Positions 495 to 63,640 of a stretch of DNA of 64,000 nucleotides are shown piece after piece. The position numbers and the translations under genes were made by a program. The DNA is from Glandiceps talaboti (Eukaryota; Hemichordata; Enteropneusta; Spengelidae), in the NCBI RefSeq assembly GCF_964340395.1, contig NC_135549.1, positions 32,446,832-32,510,831 on the forward strand, read 5' to 3'. Under the pieces are notes generated by a model, which was not told where the DNA came from, did no database searches, and worked only from the letters and a program-made list of their open reading frames with translations. Each line of letters opens with the position of its first letter. The first letter of the stretch is position 1.

Positions 495-24088
<23,594 letters not shown>

Positions 24089-39900: not shown

Positions 39901-42900
39901 TTGGAAGGCAATTATGATAGAAGGCATGCATGTACATTAACTATAATAATTTTAATAGTTTTGTCAAGGTTTTATGTAAATATTTTCATTTGAGTAAAAA
40001 GTTTATAAACTCAGCTTGTACCTCTTTAAAAGTCCTCATGTGTATGTCCACTTTAAAAGTCCTCATGTGTATGTCCACTTTAAAAGTCCTCGTGTATGTC
40101 CACTTTAAAAGTCCTCATGTGTATGTCCACTTTAAAAGTCCTCATATGTATGTCCACTTTAAAAGTCCTCATGTGTATGTCCACTTTAAAAGTCCTCATG
40201 TGTATGTCCACTTTAAAAGTCCTCATGTGTATGTCCACTTTAAAAGTCCTCATGTGTATGTCCACTTTAAAAGTCCTCGTGTATGTCCACTTTAAAAGTC
40301 CTCATGTGTATGTCCACTTTAAAAGTCCTCATGTGTATGTCCACTTTAAAAGTCCTCATGTGTATGTCCACTTTAAAAGTCCTCATGTGTATGTCCACTT
40401 TAAAAGTCCTCATGTGTATGTCCACTTTAAAAGTCCTCACTTGTATGTCTTCTTTAATGTGTAACTTTTGATGACGACATCTGTGTCCTTTTTTAATCTC
40501 TGATTTATTACTAGTGTCATCCGAATACTGTAATAGCTACTATGATTCAAATGGCGATTTCCAGGATGGCTTTTCGTGTCCAAGAGATTCATTCTTTGAT
40601 GATGATATTTATTGCTGTGGTTCATCAACATATAAGTATTGTTGTGATGATGCCTTTGACTACATAGAAAATGATGTGGTAGAGGGCTGGTAAGTAGAAT
40701 TTCCAACATCATGTGTTGCATGTTAGCAAAGAAACATATCTGTACATCAGAAATAGATGTATTTTTCAATCAATGTGTCAATCAACAGAATACTCCTCTT
40801 TCATTCAGAATGTACTAGAAGTTGAAAAAAGTACATATGATTTTGGAAAGTTTGGCATTCTTTCCCCCGATAAATATTTAAAGGATAAGATATTAAGAAG
40901 TGAGTCTTACAGAGAGATTTGAAGGTTTTTCATTTGTTATGCACAATTGCAGTGAAATGTAAAGCTAAGACATGCACAATTGCAGTGAAATGTAAAGCTA
41001 AGACATGCACAATTGCAGTGAAATGTAAAGCTAAGACATGCACAATTGCAGTGAAATGTAAAGCTAAGACATGCACAATTGCAGTGAAATGTAAAGCTAA
41101 GACATTCTCAATGTTATTGTCGCTACCTTGCACTTGACCTATGTGATCATCACAGTCACCTGTTCACTCTAGCTTAGATTCACTATACTTTCAGCAGAAA
41201 ATGCAGTAACAATAACTAGGTCCTAAGTTCACCTTTCTCTGTATATTATTTGTAGCATAAATGAAACAACCCCTATCATTTATGAAATATGATAATCGTG
41301 GAAACTATATACAAGTTGTTGAAATCACAAATAAACAATTACAATTGAATATGAGAATGAATGTTCATGGAAACACATCACAAATTTTCACTGACATCTT
41401 ATTAGCATGTGAAGAGTGTACTAGAATGGAGTGTTTCTCTCAAGATCATTTCATGTGTCTCTTTCAAGACACACTACCCCATTGTAGTACTCCCCTGATG
41501 ATGCCGATGAGACATCAATGAAAATCTGGGATTATCTTCCAAGAAATTATCATTTGAGTAGAATCTGAAATTTCATGAGTTAACAACTTCATGTTTTAAC
41601 TTTTCTTCTAAGGGCTGGTATAGTGGCATCAGTGATTAGTGCCATTGTTTTCATTGTGATCGTTGGTGTCATCATATGCTGTTGTCTATGCAGTTGCTGT
41701 CTAATTAATAAGAGAAGGCGTATGCCTAGAACCAGTAAGTTTACAACCCAATTACATAACATCAGAACGCTTACAACCCAGTCACATAGAACCAGTAAGT
41801 TTACCATCCAATCACATAAAACCTGTAAGTTTACCATCCAATCACATAAAATCATAAGTTTACCATCCAATCACATAAAACCTGTAAGTTTACCATCCAA
41901 TCACATAAAACCAGTAAGTTTACCACCCAATCACATAAAACCAGTAAGTTTACCATCCAATCACATAAAATCATAAGTTTACCATCCAATCACATAAAAC
42001 CAGTAAGTTTACCACCCAATCACATAGAACCAGTAAGTTTACCATCCAATCACATAAAACCAGTAAGTTTACCATCCAATCACCTAAAACTAGTAAGTTT
42101 ACCATCCAATCACATAGAACCAGTAAGTTTACCATCCAATCACATAAAACCAGTAAGTTTACCATCCAATCACATAAAACCAGTAAGTTTACCATCCAAT
42201 CACATAAAACTAGTAAGTTTACCATCCAATCATATAAAACCAGTAAGTTTACCATCCAATCACATAAAACCAGTAAGTTTACCATCCAATCACATAAAAC
42301 CAGTAAGTTTACCATCCAATCACATAAAAGTAGTAAGTTTACCATCCAATCACATAGAACCAGTAAGTTTACCATCCAATCACATAAAACCAGTAAGTTT
42401 ACCATCCAATCACATAAAACCAGTAAGTTTAGCATCCAATCACATAAAACCAGTAAGTTTACCATCCAATCACATAAAACCAGTAAGTTTACCATCCAAT
42501 CACCTAAAACTAGTAAGTTTACCATCCAATCACATAGAACCAGTAAGTTTACCATCCAATCACATAAAACCAGTAAGTTTACCATCCAATCACATAAAAC
42601 CAGTAAGTTTACCATCCAATCACATAAAACTAGTAAGTTTACCATCCAATCACATAAAACCAGTAAGTTTACCATCCAATCACATAAAACCAGTAAGTTT
42701 ACCATCCAATCACATAAAACCAGTAAGTTTACCATCCAATCACATAAAAGTAGTAAGTTTACCATCCAATCACATAGAACCAGTAAGTTTACCATCCAAT
42801 CACATAAAACCAGTAAGTTTACCATCCAATCACATAGAACCAGTAAGTTTAGCATCCAATCACATAAAACCAGTAAGTTTACCATCCAATCACATAAAAC

Positions 42901-44877
42901 CAGTAAGTTTACCATCCAATCACATAGAACCAGTAAGTTTACCATCCAATCACATAGAACCAGTAAGTTTACCATCCAATCACATAAAACCAGTAAGTTT
43001 ACCATCCAATCGCATAAAACTAGTAAGTTTACCATCCAATCACATAAAAGTAGTAAGTTTACCATCCAATCACATAAAATCATAAGTTTACCATCCAATC
43101 ACATAAAATCATAAGTTTACCATCCAATCACATAAAACCTGTAAGTTTACCATCCAATCACCTAAAACTAGTAAGTTTACCACCCAATCACATAAAACCA
43201 GTAAGTTTACCATCCAATCACATAAAACCAGTAAGTTTACCACCCAATCACATAAAACCAGTAAGTTTACCATCCAATCACATAAAACCAGTAAGTTTAC
43301 CACCCAATCACATAAAACCAGTAAGTTTACCATCCAATCACCTAAAACCAGTAAGTTTACCATCCAATCACCTAAAACTAGTAAGTTTACCACCCAATCA
43401 CATAAAACCAGTAAGTTTACCATCCAATCACATAGAACCAGTAAGTTTACCATCCAATCACATAAAATCATCAGTGTACCATCCAATTACATAAAACCAG
43501 TAAGTTTACCATCCAATCACATAAAACCAGTAAGTTTACCATCCAATCACATAAAATCATCAGTGTACCATCCAATTACATAAAACCAGTAAGTTTACCA
43601 TCCAATCACCTAAAACTAGTAAGTTTACCATCCAATCACCTAAAACCAGTAAGTTTACCATCCAATCACATAAAACCAGTAAGTTTACCATCCAATTACA
43701 TAAAACCAGTAAGTTTACCATCCAATCACATAAAACCAGTAAGTTTACCATCCAATCACATAGAACCAGTAAGTTTACCATCCAATCACATAAAACCAGT
43801 AAGTTTACCATCCAATCACATAAAACCAGTAAGTTTACCATCCAATCACATAAAACCAGTAAGTTTACCATCCAATCACATAAAACCAGTAAGTTTACCA
43901 TCCAATCACATAAAACCAGTAAGTTTACCATCCAATCACATAAAACCAGTAAGTTTACCATCCAATCACATAAAACCAGTAAGTTTACCATCCAATCACA
44001 TAAAACCAGTAAGTTTACCATCCAATCACATAAAACTAGTAAGTTTACCATCCAATCACATAAAACCAGTAAGTTTACCATCCAATCACATAAAACCAGT
44101 AAGTTTACCATCCAATCACATAAAACCAGTAAGTTTACCATCCAATCACATAAAACTAGTAAGTTTACCATCCAATCACATAAAATCATAAGTTTACCAT
44201 TCCAATCACATTCCAATCTTGTCATCACCATATCAAAGACACAGTTATGAAATGCACGATATGGTATATGTGATGTTGAAACTACATATATTGCCATATT
44301 AATGCCTAGTGGTCAGCTGTAACTGAAATTTGTAACTTATTCTGATGAGGATCATCAACCAAGACAGATTGAAAGCTCATTGCTAAAAAGTTTGAAGTTC
44401 TGTTTGTAACTTATAGTCTGTAAATGATTCGATCTACCAAGCTGATCAACATTCTTGGGTAATACCATAATTTATTGTTTCATTCTTGGATGTTTGTTTT
44501 TTCCAACAGCCGTTGTAACAGGAACAAGAGCTCCTATGACAACAGTTACAACTACCAACTACCCAGTAGGAACCAATCCACCACCAACATCTCAGGCATA
44601 CCCCCCACAGCCTTACCCACCACAACCCTACCCACAGCAGCCATACCCACAACAACCCTATCAACAGCAGCCATACTCACAACAACCCTATCAACAACAA
44701 CCCTACCCACAGCAACCATACCCACAACAACCCTACCAGCAGCAACCCTATCAACAACAACCACCTCCATCCCAACCCAAAATTGATGACCAACCACCCC
44801 CATACCCAGCAGTAGCAGCATCAGCTCCTCCATACCCACCTCCAAGCAATGCTCCCCCTTATCCTGTCAAGGAGTAA
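33904..44877 (+). CDS. Shisa-family membrane protein, complete, four exons
   Basis: Exons 33904-33955, 40515-40689, 41613-41734 and 44510-44877 join in phase (1, 2, 1) to 238 residues. Residues 1-18 (MATKFGCVLLSLLFVTLG) form a signal peptide. Next comes the Shisa Cys-rich ectodomain (EYCNSYYDSNG, GFSCP, YCCG, YCCDD) and one membrane helix (IVASVISAIVFIVIVGVIIC) followed by CCLCSCC and a KRRR stop-transfer. The cytosolic tail is Pro/Gln/Tyr-rich with PPPY, a WW-domain-binding motif. This order matches SHISA4/5-type proteins, which act in the endomembrane system; the role of this one is not shown. The start is the only ATG giving a signal peptide that splices in phase. Intron 1 is 6.6 kb. Intron 3 is a splice-donor minisatellite. 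Confidence 0.88.
33956..35099. other. Shisa intron 1, first part: nothing recognised
   Basis: Unique-looking AT-rich sequence. A gagaattctcctgatt-type short repeat near 34.5 kb is the only local structure. Confidence 0.5.
35100..36420. mobile_element. Long inverted repeat, probable old DNA element
   Basis: The left arm at about 35100-35250 (aggtatgtaaaggtcccgaa, ctttgtcgaaaatggcaaa) recurs inverted at about 36290-36420 (ttgccattttcgacaaagtt, gggacccttacatacct). A spacer of about 1 kb has no transposase. Confidence 0.6.
35920..36075. repeat. 27-bp minisatellite, about 5-6 copies
   Basis: Unit aactacgacagtgttggtac plus atacggt, inside the inverted-repeat element. Confidence 0.9.
36421..37815. 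other. Shisa intron 1, middle: no supported gene
   Basis: 36.4-37.3 kb is AT-rich. 37.37-37.63 kb is distinctly CpG-richer (cggttacgctacaagggtct, gatagcgttattttcaaccg) and could be an exon or a transposon remnant, but I see no usable frame. Confidence 0.45.
37817..37994 (-). CDS. Possible terminal exon nested antisense in Shisa intron 1
   Basis: On the minus strand, an exon after tttctgttgtacag would read a membrane-like segment (MATLVLLWGRW), then SGKLIGEPVHSLCVHFDMGD and ECTDPHVNIGNVTTIE. It ends at TAA, which overlaps an AATAAA. The Cys/His/Asp composition and overlapping polyadenylation signal look gene-like. I do not recognise the family and find no partner exon, so this is tentative. 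Confidence 0.22.
38656..38902. repeat. 49-bp minisatellite, 5 copies
   Basis: Unit tgacaagccctcatcatcgc plus tcattaatattcatttggta and cagctgttt. Flanking 38045-38655 holds nothing recognisable except short gggaaccccggta repeats at 38.2-38.3 kb. Confidence 0.92.
39095..39137. repeat. (C)n(CA)n microsatellite
   Basis: A run of about 14 C followed by CA dinucleotides. Confidence 0.9.
39238..39685 (+). mobile_element. Family A fragment (3' part)
   Basis: Three internal units (tagcaacaagaccacgccc etc.) and the 3' end cagttgtgctacaatgccat; the 5' half is missing. Confidence 0.75.
40028..40450. repeat. 27-bp minisatellite, about 15 copies
   Basis: Unit aaagtcctcatgtgtatgtc plus cacttta; two units lack 3 bp (cctcgtgtatg). 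It ends about 65 bp before Shisa exon 2. Confidence 0.93.
40515..40689 (+). CDS. Shisa exon 2: Cys-rich ectodomain
   Basis: After tttattactag, ending gagggctg|gtaagt, phase 1 to 2. It contains the Shisa Cys pattern C...C...CC...CC and many acidic residues. Confidence 0.85.
40939..41104. repeat. 33-bp minisatellite, 5 copies
   Basis: Unit atgcacaattgcagtgaaat plus gtaaagctaagac, nearly identical copies, in Shisa intron 2. The rest of the intron holds nothing recognised. Confidence 0.93.
41613..41734 (+). CDS. Shisa exon 3: transmembrane helix
   Basis: The exon follows tttcttctaag and ends agaacca|gtaagt, phase 2 to 1. It encodes the membrane helix, the CCLCSCC cluster and KRRRMPRT. Its donor is the first unit of the following array. 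Confidence 0.85.
41728..44205 (+). repeat. 30-bp minisatellite built on the Shisa exon-3 splice donor, about 82 copies
   Basis: Unit accagtaagtttaccatcca plus atcacataaa. The first unit is the exon-3 end and its GT donor, and most units retain GTAAGTTTACC. Distinctive variants recur exactly 420 bp apart (cacctaaaactagt at 42082 and 42502; agcatccaat at 42430 and 42850), showing a duplicated 14-unit block. The minus frame open through it is an artefact of the 30-bp period. Confidence 0.96.
44510..44877 (+). CDS. Shisa exon 4: Pro/Gln/Tyr-rich cytoplasmic tail
   Basis: The exon follows ttttttccaacag and ends at TAA. After a Thr-rich start it has about ten PYPQQ/PYQQQ pentads, then PPPYPAV and two APPYP motifs. 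The pentads are encoded by a 15-bp tandem repeat, so length may vary between alleles. Confidence 0.87.
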
Positions 44878-54704: not shown

Positions 54705-54893
54705 CTAAACATTGTCTGGGTGTGCTATCCATTTTGGAGGAATGGGTCCAACATAACGACAAGATGCACCTTGACATAAACTCAACATTTGAAGTCTCTG
54801 GTCTTGTTGTTCTATGATATACGGATCAACTTGGTGTACGATGTTTGTTAGTTGATCTGGGTCTTTGTTCAAGTCATACAGTTCCACAAAACT
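54705..54893 (-). CDS. GNS: GNS terminal exon
   Basis: After acceptor atcttatag on the minus strand. Encodes [20 protein letters not shown] and the Cys pair LCQGASC. Ends TAG about 35 residues after the DPDQ block, shorter than the basic tail of vertebrate GNS. Confidence 0.88.
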   Translation of the reverse strand, partial: SFVELYDLNKDPDQLTNIVHQVDPYIIEQQDQRLQMLSLCQGASCRYVGPIPPKWIAHPDNV

Positions 54894-57582
54894 CTATAAG
54901 ATATAAGAAAGTTAAAACATGTTTTATCAAACAAAATAGATGTTATGTGTGCTTGACCCAAATCAAGTAGTAAGTATATTAACTAACAGCATGTTTTGCA
55001 GAGTTAGCAAATCTATCCATGCTACTATAATCATTACGTAACCCTTTACTTCATGGCATCATCGGTCTTTCCAGAGGCCATTCAACCACATTTGATTCAG
55101 TCACAAAACAAACTTAAGTGCATATGTCTCACATAGTACCTTTGCACCAGGTTTGGTTGAAATCAGTTGGTGTATACATCCCAGAGATATAAGAGTGGAC
55201 ACACAGACAGACGGAGAGATGGATGGATGAACACATGCATGCAAGGACAAACAGAACCAATGTAATAGCCCCCCCCCCTCCCCCACCCAAGCTTAGATAG
55301 TACACTCACCTCATCATCATTGAATTCACAATACATCATGCTAGTTGTTGAATTTATTGTTCTTGAACAGGAGTATGTGTTGTTCTTTGCATCCTCACAT
55401 GAACAGTCGATGGGTGAGCATCCCTGTCAAGAAAAATATACTTTTTTAGTTGGGACTATCCATTTACAATGTACAATATGAACTGTGATTGGTTGTGACT
55501 ACATCTATAAAGTGAACTGTGATTGGGTGGTGACTACATATATAAAGTGTACTGTGATTGGTTGTGACTACATCTATAAAGTGAACTGTGATTGGGTGGT
55601 GACTACATATATAAAGTGTACTGTGATTGGTTGTGACTACATATATAAAGTGTACTGTGATTGGTGGTGACTACATATATAAAGTGTACTGTGATTGGTT
55701 GTGACTACACATATAAAGTGTACTGTGATCGGTTGTGACTACATATATAAAGTGTACTGTGATTGGTTGCGACTATTGTACTGTGATTGGTTGTGACTAC
55801 ATATATAAAGTGTACCGTGATTGGTTGTGACCACACATATAAAGTATACTGTGATTGGTTGTGACTATATATATAAAGTGTACTATGATTGGTTGTGACT
55901 ACATTATACAAAGTGTACTGTGATTGGTTGTGACTACACATATAAAGTGTACTGTGATTGGTTGTGACTACATATATAAAGTGTACTGTGATTGGTTGCG
56001 ACTACATATATAAAGTGTAGTGTGATTGGTTGTGACTACACATATAAAGTGTACTGTGATTGGTTGTGACTACACATATTGAGAGTGAACTTTTCAAGAA
56101 TGTTGATTTTGGATGAAAAAAAGTGCAAAATGACATTATTGGTCAAATTTACCAAGTATTTACTACATAAGTAGGTTTTTTACTCTGAAAAGTCAATTTT
56201 GAGACTATTCAGACCCTTTCAGACAATAATTTCCAAGCTTTACAAGACAGCATCAACATGTAAAAAGCAACTACACAGGGTTGAAATACTTTTGAAATAT
56301 ACTTTGATAGCATCTTGACAGTAAGAGGGGAAGAACTTGAGACTGGGATATGTCCACCTCATGTGGGGGGGCCATGTGGTGTGGTAGCTAGGTAATACAT
56401 GTATATGTGTATATTTATAGTTATGCTTGAACTAATAAGTAATATTAAAGAATTCATGTAAGAAACAGGGAGAAGAACAAATATTGACATGTACCACATT
56501 TCAGACAAGGCTGATGATGCCATTGTAGAAAAAGGATTTTTTTCTTCCATCACAATCCAAAACACAATGACCCCCCCCCCCCCCTATCCACAATTCTGAA
56601 AACAGCATGACCCCCCTACTGCCAATTTCAAAAACAGAGTGACCCCCCTCCCAATCCACCGGACCTCCCCCCCCCCCCCCCCCAGGCCAAAGAAACTGAC
56701 CGGTCCCTTATATTGTATCGTTACAAAAGTTGACATACATATGAAGAATATAGTACAATATATATCCCTGTACCAAGTTTGAAGGGAATATTGGATCGTA
56801 TTATGACATAAATTGACATGCACATGTAACCTACCGGTAGATAGGGTATGTATTATAGAACATTGTCCTTATACCAACTTTGAATGAGATCTATTCAGGG
56901 ATGTCTGCGTAATGGGTTTGAACATGAACAATTTGTAACAAAATGGCTGTCTGGCAGCCATATTGAATTGTATCACAAAATAATTGACATGCATATGTAT
57001 GCCATATTGTGTTGCCCTTGTACCAAGTTTGATAGAAATCGGTCCAGTCTATGATGTTCAAGTAATGGTTCTGGACATGAAAAATTCGTAAAAAATGTGG
57101 CTGCCTGGAGGCCATATTGAATCGTATCATGACATAAATTGACAGGCATATATGTATAAATGTAATAGAACACTGTCCTTATGTCAACTGTGAATGAGAT
57201 CTGTTCAGGCATATCTGCCGTCTGGCAGCCATATTGGATTGTATCATAAAATAAATTGATGTGCATATGTATGACTAAGTGTGTTTTCTTTGTATCAAGT
57301 TTGAAAGTACCTCATTTCCGAGAAATGGCTCCAAACACACAGACTGAAGCACGGATGCACAGAACCCAATTTTTAAGCCCCCCCCCCCCCCCCCCCCCAC
57401 ATTGTCCAGCAGGGACTAATGAATATTTGTGGCAGAAATGAATGTGACACTGTCAGTATACTCACAGCAAGATTGATGGTGTTATTGCAATCTGGTTGAC
57501 CCAGTGGATAATACATGCCTTCATGTTCAATCAGGAAGTCTTCTCGCCATGCAGAACTCATCAAGGTTGTCTTGTTAGGGTG
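54705..57582 (-). CDS. GNS: N-acetylglucosamine-6-sulfatase, last three exons (gene continues beyond window)
   Basis: Lysosomal sulfatase that removes 6-sulfate from N-acetylglucosamine in heparan and keratan sulfate. Minus-strand exons 57582-57466, 55423-55310 and 54893-54705 join in phase 0 to 139 residues and a stop. The match to the animal GNS C-terminus is position by position: [36 protein letters not shown] and [15 protein letters not shown], then [13 protein letters not shown]. The DLxxDPxQLTNI block separates it from arylsulfatases. The catalytic FGly domain lies upstream, outside the window. The gene is convergent with Shisa and its introns are filled with minisatellites. Confidence 0.88.
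55040..55295. repeat. Interspersed repeat (family B type)
   Basis: Contains ccaggtttggttgaaatcag and tccagagatat-like text followed by gacagacgg and gatggatg, the same order as at 57.9-58.3 kb. Confidence 0.5.
55310..55423 (-). CDS. GNS: GNS penultimate exon
   Basis: Minus-strand acceptor cttgacag, donor gatgag|gtgagt, 38 codons, phase 0 to 0. Encodes [20 protein letters not shown] and the YCEFNDDE end. The Cys-rich block is diagnostic for GNS. Confidence 0.9.
55475..56085. repeat. 34-bp minisatellite, about 18 copies
   Basis: Unit gtactgtgattggttgtgac plus tacatatataaagt, in a GNS intron. Every unit holds ATTGG (CCAAT on the other strand), and most hold ATATATAAAG. Confidence 0.93.
56115..56705 (-). 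mobile_element. Inverted partial copy of TIR family C
   Basis: Reverse complement of parts of the 50-52.9-kb element (tttcagacaataatttccaa, agcatcttgacagtaagagg). Ends aaagaaactgaccggtccct. Confidence 0.7.
56706..57465. repeat. Family B-type interspersed repeats in GNS intron
   Basis: Four or so diverged blocks with ccaagtttgatagaaatc, gcagccatattgaattgta and acataaattgacatgcatat, then a poly-C run at about 57380. Confidence 0.5.
57466..57582 (-). CDS. GNS: GNS antepenultimate exon
   Basis: Minus-strand acceptor tttctcaacag, donor aatcttgct|gtgagt, 39 codons, phase 0 to 0. Encodes [14 protein letters not shown], aligning to the W-R-x-D-x-L-x-E segment of GNS, and two Asn glycosylation motifs (NKT, NNT). 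Confidence 0.85.
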
Positions 57583-61249: not shown

Positions 61250-62125
61250 AAAAAATACCGCCAATGGTGTTGTAGCACAACTGTCCAGTTTTTAAAAATG
61301 TTTATCCATATGCTAGTCCATGCTAACAAGAAGTGTTCATTTGATGAATGACTATCCAGTTGCCTATCCAACCATGTTACTATCTTTGCGATATACGCCA
61401 TTATTTGGCTGTTGCTATGGGCGTGGTCATGTTGTTAGATATATTTACATACATTTTTGTATGTTTTTGTTCACTTTTGTATGAATTCCTGATATGATCT
61501 TTGCAATATACATAATCATTTGGCTGTTGCTATGGCTGTGGTCTTGTTGCGAGGCAAATTTACATACATTTTTTGAATGTTTATTCAATTGTCTATTAAT
61601 CCCTGTTGTTATCTTTGTGAAATACATGACCATTTGGCTGTTGCTATGGCGTGGTCATGGTTGCTAGGGTATTTGGATACATGTTTTGAATGTTTATTCA
61701 CTTGCCTACCAGATTTGACCAAAATATACTGCCATTTGGTTATTGCTAAGGGCGTGGTCATGGTTGCTAGGGCCAATTTTGTCAAAATGTTTTGAATAAA
61801 ATCTGCAGAATAACACTTTCAGAAACATCTCACCTCTCAGTTTCAGAAACATCTCATCTCTCAGTTTCAGATTCACTGACCAAGTATTTTTTTGAGACGT
61901 AAGTTTTTGACCGAACATTTTTACACCTAATTTGCATATCACTTTTGGAATCACTGTATGCTTAATATTTCTTTGTCCATGCATCCCTAGATGCATTTCC
62001 ATTAAATTTCAGCCCAATCTGTTCAGTGGATTTGGAATTATAGATTTTTTTCTAAACAGACACATTTTTAGTCCCAATTTGCATATTACTGACGGAATCA
62101 TCATGTCATGAACAATTCACTTACT
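61250..62125 (-). mobile_element. Family A copy, inverted
   Basis: Reads atggtgttgtagcacaactg at the 3' end, then internal units inverted (tttggctgttgctatgggcg), then body text. Its 5' part is cut off by the next minisatellite. Confidence 0.75.
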
Positions 62126-63330
62126 ACCTGTGACCAGCAAATGATCACTTACCACCAGTTATCGGCAAATGATCACTTACCACCTGTGACCAGCAACTGA
62201 TCACTTACCACCTGTGACCAGCAAATGATCACTTACCACCTGTGACCAGCAACTGATCACTTACCACCTGTGACCAGCAAATGATCACTTATCACCAGCA
62301 AATGATCACTTACCACCTGTGACCAGCAAATGATCACTTACCACCTGTGACCAGCAAATGATCACTTACCACCAGTTATCGGCAAATGATCACTTACCAC
62401 CAGTTATCGGCAAATGATCACTTACTACCTGTGACCAGCAACTGATCACTTACCACCTGTGACCAGCAACTGATCACTTACCACCTGTGACCAGCAAATG
62501 TTCACTTATCACCTGTGACCAGCAAATGATCACTTACCACCTGTGACCAGCAAATGATCACTTACCATCTGTGACCAGCAAATGATCACTTACCACCAGT
62601 TATCGGCAAATGATCACTTACCACCGGTTATCGGCAAATGATCACTTACCACCTGTGACCAGCAACTGATCACTTACCACCTGTGACCAGCAACTGATCA
62701 CTTACCGCCTGTGACCAGCAAATGATCACTTACCGCCTGTGACAGCAACTGATCACTTACCACCAGTTATTGACAAATGATCACTTACCACCGGTTATCG
62801 GCAAATGATCACTTACCACCTGTGACCAGCAACTGATCACTTACCACCTGTGACCAGCAACTGATCACTTACCGCCTGTGACCAGCAAATGATCACTTAC
62901 CACCTGTGACCAGCAACTGATCACTTACCACCTGTGACCAGCAACTGATCACTTACCGCCTGTGACCAGCAAATGATCACTTACCGCCTGTGACAGCAAC
63001 TGAACACTTACCACCAGTTATTGGCAAATGATCACTTACCACCTGTGACCAGCAACTGATCACTTACCACCTGTGACCAGCAACTGATTACTTACCACCA
63101 GTTATCGGCAAATGATCACTTACCGCCTGTGACCAGCAACTGATCACTTACCACCAGTTATTGACAACTGATCACTTACCACCTGTGACCAGCAACTGAT
63201 CACTTACCACCAGTTATCGGCAAATGATCACTTACCACCTGTGACCAGCAACTGATCACTTACCACCAGTTATCGGCAAATGATCACTTACCACCTGTGA
63301 CCAGCAAATGATCACTTACCACCAGTTACC
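62120..63330 (-). repeat. 27-28-bp minisatellite, about 43 copies
   Basis: Plus-strand unit cagcaaatgatcacttacca plus cctgtgac, with a second variant cagttatcggcaaatgatca. On the minus (GNS sense) strand most units contain GGTAAGTGATC, a donor-like sequence. Variants recur as blocks about 250 bp apart. Confidence 0.95.
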
Positions 63331-63394
63331 AATCACTACACATTTCCTTATGATTATCTGGTTCTTGCAAGGTTGTCTTACTTGGTTATCACTT

Positions 63395-63640
63395 TCCATG
63401 GCAGAAGCTAGCTATGTGTTATGGCTATTGGGGGTCAAGGTCAAAATTTCAGCTCTCATTAGCAACCTCATTATTGATAATGTGGGGTACACACTTAAAT
63501 GGTGTCTGTATGAGGTATGGGGAAAAATGTTCATTTTTAACACAAATATGGCTGTCCAAGGTCAAGGTTGATAAATTAAGTGATATGTATAAAGTTGTAC
63601 TGTTCAGTGTTTGATGTGTATGCCAGGTTTAGTTATTATT
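63395..63640. repeat. Family B-type fragment
   Basis: Contains gggggtcaaggtcaaaattt and aaatatggctgtccaaggtc. No exon recognised. Confidence 0.45.

Follow-up and report, generated by a model that had tools for sequence, protein, structure and literature searches.

The stretch of Glandiceps talaboti DNA analysed here (the window, 64 kb) carries on its plus strand a Shisa gene, for which our gene model covers exons 2–4. The exon borders are predictions, drawn from reading frame, consensus sites and the domain match in exon 2 rather than from cDNA. Exon 2 (40515–40689, donor GT at 40690) encodes the Shisa N-terminal domain: the open reading frame 40475–40690 matched PF13908 (Shisa_N) with an E value of 4.3e-13, the sole Pfam family at E ≤1 for this exon. 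Exon 3 (41613–41734, plus strand, 122 nt) is frame-consistent with exons 2 and 4, ends in AGAACCA before a donor GT at 41735 and encodes a hydrophobic segment that, by reading, would form the membrane span. Exon 4 (44510–44877, plus strand) encodes a Pro/Gln/Tyr-rich tail with C-terminal PVKE, closed by a TAA stop at 44875–44877, and carries a 15-bp coding tandem repeat of the PYPQQ type (44599–44762). Neither exon 3 nor exon 4 gave a Pfam match above cutoff. Intron 2 has 923 nt and intron 3 has 2775 nt.

Most of intron 3 is a minisatellite on the plus strand, spanning 41730–44211 as delimited by TRF and by splitting into units, with the 30-bp unit AACCAGTAAGTTTACCATCCAATCACATAA in 82 full copies, the first of which is the exon-3 donor. 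TRF reported period 30, 82.9 copies, 94% matches and 0% indels; 76 of the 82 units are 30 nt long and six are 29 nt. The array makes up 89% of the intron, leaving 298 nt without it. The unit consensus, allowing ≤3 mismatches, was found at 75 places in the window, all within the array, and at none in 100 window shuffles; the unit pattern had no match in viral contigs, a search with a window repeat gave none in genome contigs and an Rfam search gave none. An earlier note, made from sequence alone, had described this minisatellite at 41728–44205. The array is indeed there, its start moving to 41730 by TRF, with identity between the exon-3 end and the array units extending back to 41727. Two adjacent 14-unit (420-bp) blocks at 42028–42867 lie on the best diagonal of the string of unit labels, at an offset of 14 units, and are alike at 12 of 14 units as counted by eye on that string; we read this likeness as a block duplication inside the array.

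The splice-donor motif GTAAGT is present in 75 of the 82 units, being lost from those starting at 41760, 41849, 41968, 43077, 43106, 43465 and 43554. The claim that most units keep the donor thus held, as did the figure of roughly 82 units, but the number of intact donors is 75 and not about 80. Of the 75 donors, 59, the real one among them, share a single sequence from −3 to +8, and the others read CTA (10), CCT (3) or GTA (3) before the GT. Predicted pairing with the 5′ end of U1 lay between −5.4 and −5.6 kcal/mol for all 75 donors across these four types, which bears out the description of dozens of equal donors as far as predicted U1 pairing goes. The donor of exon 2 is predicted to pair at −10.7 kcal/mol. 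Pairing at least as strong as −5.6 was predicted for 5.5% of 7739 GT sites on both strands outside the two arrays with GTAAGT units, and the Shisa array donor is therefore of moderate strength. By reading, the units have the form CCA/GTAAG, without the AG/GT ratchet point of recursive splicing.

Unit 1 spans the predicted exon-3/intron-3 junction, and a repeat unit lying across such a boundary is what marks a mirage; as had been claimed, the first unit is the real exon-3 donor and the unit includes bases common with the exon end, the boundary being a predicted one. Among the 74 other donors, 11 carry the last eight exonic bases, TAGAACCA, ahead of the GT, and 58 carry at least the last five. 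From the GT onward, ten bases recur in 72 of the 74 and nine in the remaining two. The unit adjoining unit 1 (41760), which has lost its donor, is the most diverged of the 82, with nine differences from the consensus. The array fits a history in which its exon edge is older than its interior, and this weakly favours growth from the junction, the gradient in age being itself weak because unit 1 shows only three differences while two interior units show five each. Such growth would have begun with a tandem duplication of a boundary segment of about eight exonic and 22 intronic bases, and the array would then have lengthened by slippage of units and by block duplication, of which the two 14-unit near-copies would be a product. 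From these comparisons, we infer a direction of growth in which the array likely arose from its own 5′ splice site.

Mirages have, to our knowledge, been reported so far from cephalochordates, and they tend to be unstable in length between haplotypes or in the soma; the block duplication in the single Shisa sequence at hand bears on such instability only indirectly. Those of amphioxus are tandem repeats over exon–intron boundaries, in Adh3 and the globin genes BflGb6 and BflGb9 (PMC3087553) and in the troponin C and PGBD5 genes (PMC3902484), and these two citing papers bear out what had been said of minisatellites overlapping splice sites at an amphioxus Adh locus. Like the Shisa array, they are minisatellite-like tandem copies of a boundary. 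They occur at donors or acceptors and often keep splice signals in the copies, as the Shisa array does in 75 of 82 units. They differ from it in host gene and in copy number: the Shisa array has 82 units of 30 bp, whereas BflGb6 has three or six of 150–160 bp, PGBD5 has 2–7 of 60 bp and 3–6 of 108 bp, and Adh3 units measure 10–72 bp (PMC3087553, PMC3902484). By its sequence, the Shisa array appears as a very long example of this known kind.

Minisatellites are abundant throughout the window, where 35 arrays with a period of at least 10 cover 37% of the sequence (a list merged from TRF, omitting periods below 10, overlapping rows and rows of 24–32 bp in a GATG tract near 12.8 kb). We asked how often local copies span splice junctions, using 23 predicted ones (five from Shisa, 13 from an adhesion GPCR gene and five from a minus-strand sulfatase-like gene). 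Only two of the 23 were spanned, the Shisa donor and a GPCR acceptor at 11763, compared with 613 of 1500 random positions (binomial 0.0008, Fisher 0.0011), a crude control, given that exon sequence makes up half of every junction segment; for any local copy, the counts were 3/23 and 702/1500. An array edge lay within 60 nt of five of the 23 junctions, and only 41734 fell inside a listed array. A special affinity of minisatellites for splice sites is thus unsupported; the under-representation would follow if arrays can start at any position and selection mostly removes those at exon ends. Enrichment of minisatellites in GTAAGT is not supported either: the motif is repeated in two of 32 arrays, and its density elsewhere in the window would predict about 1.1, as computed on the list of 35 units. 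The other such array, at 62117–63331 on the minus strand, has a 28-bp unit with GTAAGT in 42 copies, and its donor lies inside a self-complementary stretch. It was set aside as a third mirage: by reading, 63331 is not the end of any exon, and the open reading frame 63452–63628 had no Pfam match.

The adhesion GPCR gene, with 7tm_2 matches at E values of 4.6e-16 and 1.6e-15, holds a second, smaller mirage. Its acceptor, reading TTTGTTCCAG before and ATTGAAGTGACCAATGAG after the boundary, recurs at intervals of 42 bp. Three copies of this boundary (acceptor AG and exon start) lie at about 10120–10245 on the plus strand, and a fourth at 11711–11752 directly precedes the real boundary (11753–11794, exon from 11764). 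Compared with the 42 bases of the real boundary, these copies match at 33, 29, 32 and 32 positions, and the frame read from the acceptor of the nearest copy meets a TAA. About 1.46 kb of other sequence interrupts the series; it has short inverted ends, AGCACAACTG and CAGTTGTGCT, seen by eye and absent from the results of a search for inverted arms of at least 14 nt.

Other features of these neighbouring genes were noted in passing. A 45-bp minisatellite of about 169 copies (1784–9371, 98% matches) lies inside the GPCR gene region. At the third of the junctions with local copies, the GPCR acceptor 18414, whose exon has a GPS-like motif by reading, only the intronic sequence from −44 to −6 (18370–18408) is duplicated, in tandem, about 1.8 kb upstream at 16565–16638, and a minus-strand reverse-transcriptase open reading frame (17110–17601, PF00078) lies between the two places. 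Three minus-strand exons at 54708–57582 resemble the C-terminal part of a sulfatase, which we take this gene to encode; its only Pfam hit was SGSH_C at E 0.024, below cutoff, and its three open reading frames had no match in PDB at E ≤1.

What each of the 75 donors would yield depends on reading frame. The frame stays open to the end of exon 4 from only three of them: 41735 and the second and third intact donors, with GT at 41795–41796 (+60 nt, 20 residues if used) and 41825–41826 (+90 nt, 30 residues), both on the plus strand. This agrees with what had been said of the next two GT donors, with the correction that the unit directly after the real one (41760) has no donor, and the frame shifts past a 29-nt unit as claimed. 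Donors 41884, 41914 and 41944 are frame-shifted, with a stop just inside exon 4; from 42003 the stop falls 29 nt ahead of the exon junction. With any of the remaining 68 of 75, translation would meet a stop over 55 nt ahead of the junction. Transcripts of that kind are mostly removable by nonsense-mediated decay, so the products of distal donor use would mostly be removed.

Donor choice itself may follow proximity. When a pair of identical strong donors competed in minigenes whose flanking introns measured 365 nt, splicing took place solely at the upstream one, and a switch from intron to exon definition was placed near 250 nt of intron in human systems (PMC9225289). That work also found that the upstream member of near-equal donor pairs won genome-wide in 60% of cases, not all, and that larger exons were skipped when both minigene donors were weakened (PMC9225289). 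The Shisa locus is like these minigenes in having equal-strength donors behind one acceptor with flanking introns above 250 nt; it differs in that two designed strong donors in human cells are replaced by 75 moderate ones in a natural array (PMC9225289). Since the introns on either side of exon 3 are long (923 and 2775 nt), its recognition probably proceeds by exon definition, and this mode would favour 41735, the donor nearest the upstream acceptor. We infer that 41735 will probably win, with at best minor use of 41795 and 41825, that distal donors, if used, would mostly give early stops and degraded transcripts, and that the two in-frame donors could yield rare isoforms whose tail is longer by 20 or 30 residues. 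The suggestion that the array buffers, competes for or tunes exon-3 splicing finds no support here, with the exon-proximal donor favoured in PMC9225289 and 68 of 75 donors leading to an early stop; the suggestion that it diversifies splicing is narrowed in its useful part to those 20 or 30 residues. Most decoys in the array are probably inert, and the array itself is probably neutral or harmless.

A use of downstream units as donors is nevertheless what a human gene would lead one to consider. A splice-donor minisatellite in IFI6 (6-16, G1P3) was reportedly described by Turri, Cuin and Porter in 1995. Two downstream repeat units of this minisatellite serve as donors, giving three mRNAs (PMC4526556), and it is the nearest functional precedent for the Shisa array. 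In both genes a minisatellite at an exon end, with the donor in its units, supplies several donors after one exon. The gene, however, is unrelated to Shisa as far as Pfam shows (exon 2 of the host gene here matches Shisa_N only, which sets IFI6 family membership aside), downstream use in IFI6 is attested by mRNAs whereas the Shisa donors are known from sequence alone, and only two Shisa units are in-frame alternatives. On the IFI6 pattern, chiefly 41795 and 41825 would be used, lengthening the cytoplasmic tail by 20 or 30 residues, and copy number would matter little. Both donors are open and in frame and pair with U1 within 0.2 kcal/mol of the real donor, but an equal donor lies 60 and 90 nt upstream of them and is favoured by the proximity evidence (PMC9225289), and splicing seems undisturbed at amphioxus mirages (PMC3087553, PMC3902484). 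We regard such diversification as unlikely. Minisatellites near alternative exons in C. elegans (PMC4039745) play no part in this argument. The order of events might alternatively be reversed, an older intronic array having reached or created the boundary, with the present donor an array-derived unit. Sequence alone leaves the direction unfixed, and the last eight exon bases match array units; against this order, divergence is greatest in the unit adjoining the exon, a functional (predicted) boundary is kept in unit 1 and arrays at junctions are under-represented in the window, and we hold it to be somewhat less likely still.

Other possibilities concern the RNA itself. Counting two G-U pairs, the donor decamer GUAAGUUUAC is complementary to itself, and units might pair with each other through it, keeping decoys from U1. 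Over 28 units in the first 1000 nt of the array, the mean unpaired probability was 0.08–0.22 at the ten decamer positions compared with 0.80–0.99 elsewhere in the unit. In a first test with fully shuffled units, the dyad gave p 0.01 for the Shisa array and 0.005 for the 62117–63331 array, and three other arrays gave p ≤0.05 on one strand. A stricter shuffle that kept GTAAGT weakened the signal, with 33 of 400 shuffled units hiding the donor as well for Shisa and 11 of 400 for the minus-strand array (combined, 0.016). This pattern was noticed after the fact, however, and the Shisa array taken by itself did not reach significance; the prediction hides the real donor too (unpaired 0.26, in a range of 0.12–0.31 over 16 donors examined), the 300-nt fold is ordinary (z −1.3, 19 of 200 shuffles as good) and two donors pair with each other (−4.6) no more strongly than a donor does with U1 (−5.6). 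Hiding by this means seems very improbable. A broader version, in which splice-site minisatellites neutralise themselves, array growth lengthening the intron and thereby favouring the upstream donor while self-complementary units hide decoys in donor–donor helices, is doubtful, although less so. Without the array, intron 3 would have 298 nt, close to the switch of about 250 nt in human systems, so growth to 2775 nt may itself favour the authentic donor and may reinforce the rule protecting the exon. If true, self-neutralisation would account for an exon withstanding dozens of perfect decoys. Finally, with 75 GTAAGT sites in 2.5 kb, the array might recruit U1 against premature polyadenylation of a long intron, or retain the transcript; but intron 3 is short without the array, its sites are of moderate strength and it holds neither AATAAA nor ATTAAA to protect against, which also sets telescripting aside. 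We give this idea the least credence of all.

Together, these results make it quite probable that the Shisa array is a mirage born at the exon-3/intron-3 boundary, mainly as a by-product of the great abundance of minisatellites in the window and presumably in the genome at large, and that it would be tolerated because splicing stays accurate. The earlier reading of the array is, as a whole, partly supported. The locus, where a single acceptor is followed by 75 donors of which 59 share the same 11 bases, is a natural competition experiment: if 41735 alone were used, this would argue strongly, in vivo, that proximity across the exon governs donor choice, and if several donors were used, copy number could set isoform ratios. 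Repeat growth at junctions has been proposed as a route to new introns (PMC3087553), and the 64-kb window, with one mirage at a donor and another at an acceptor, shows splice junctions being drawn into such growth.
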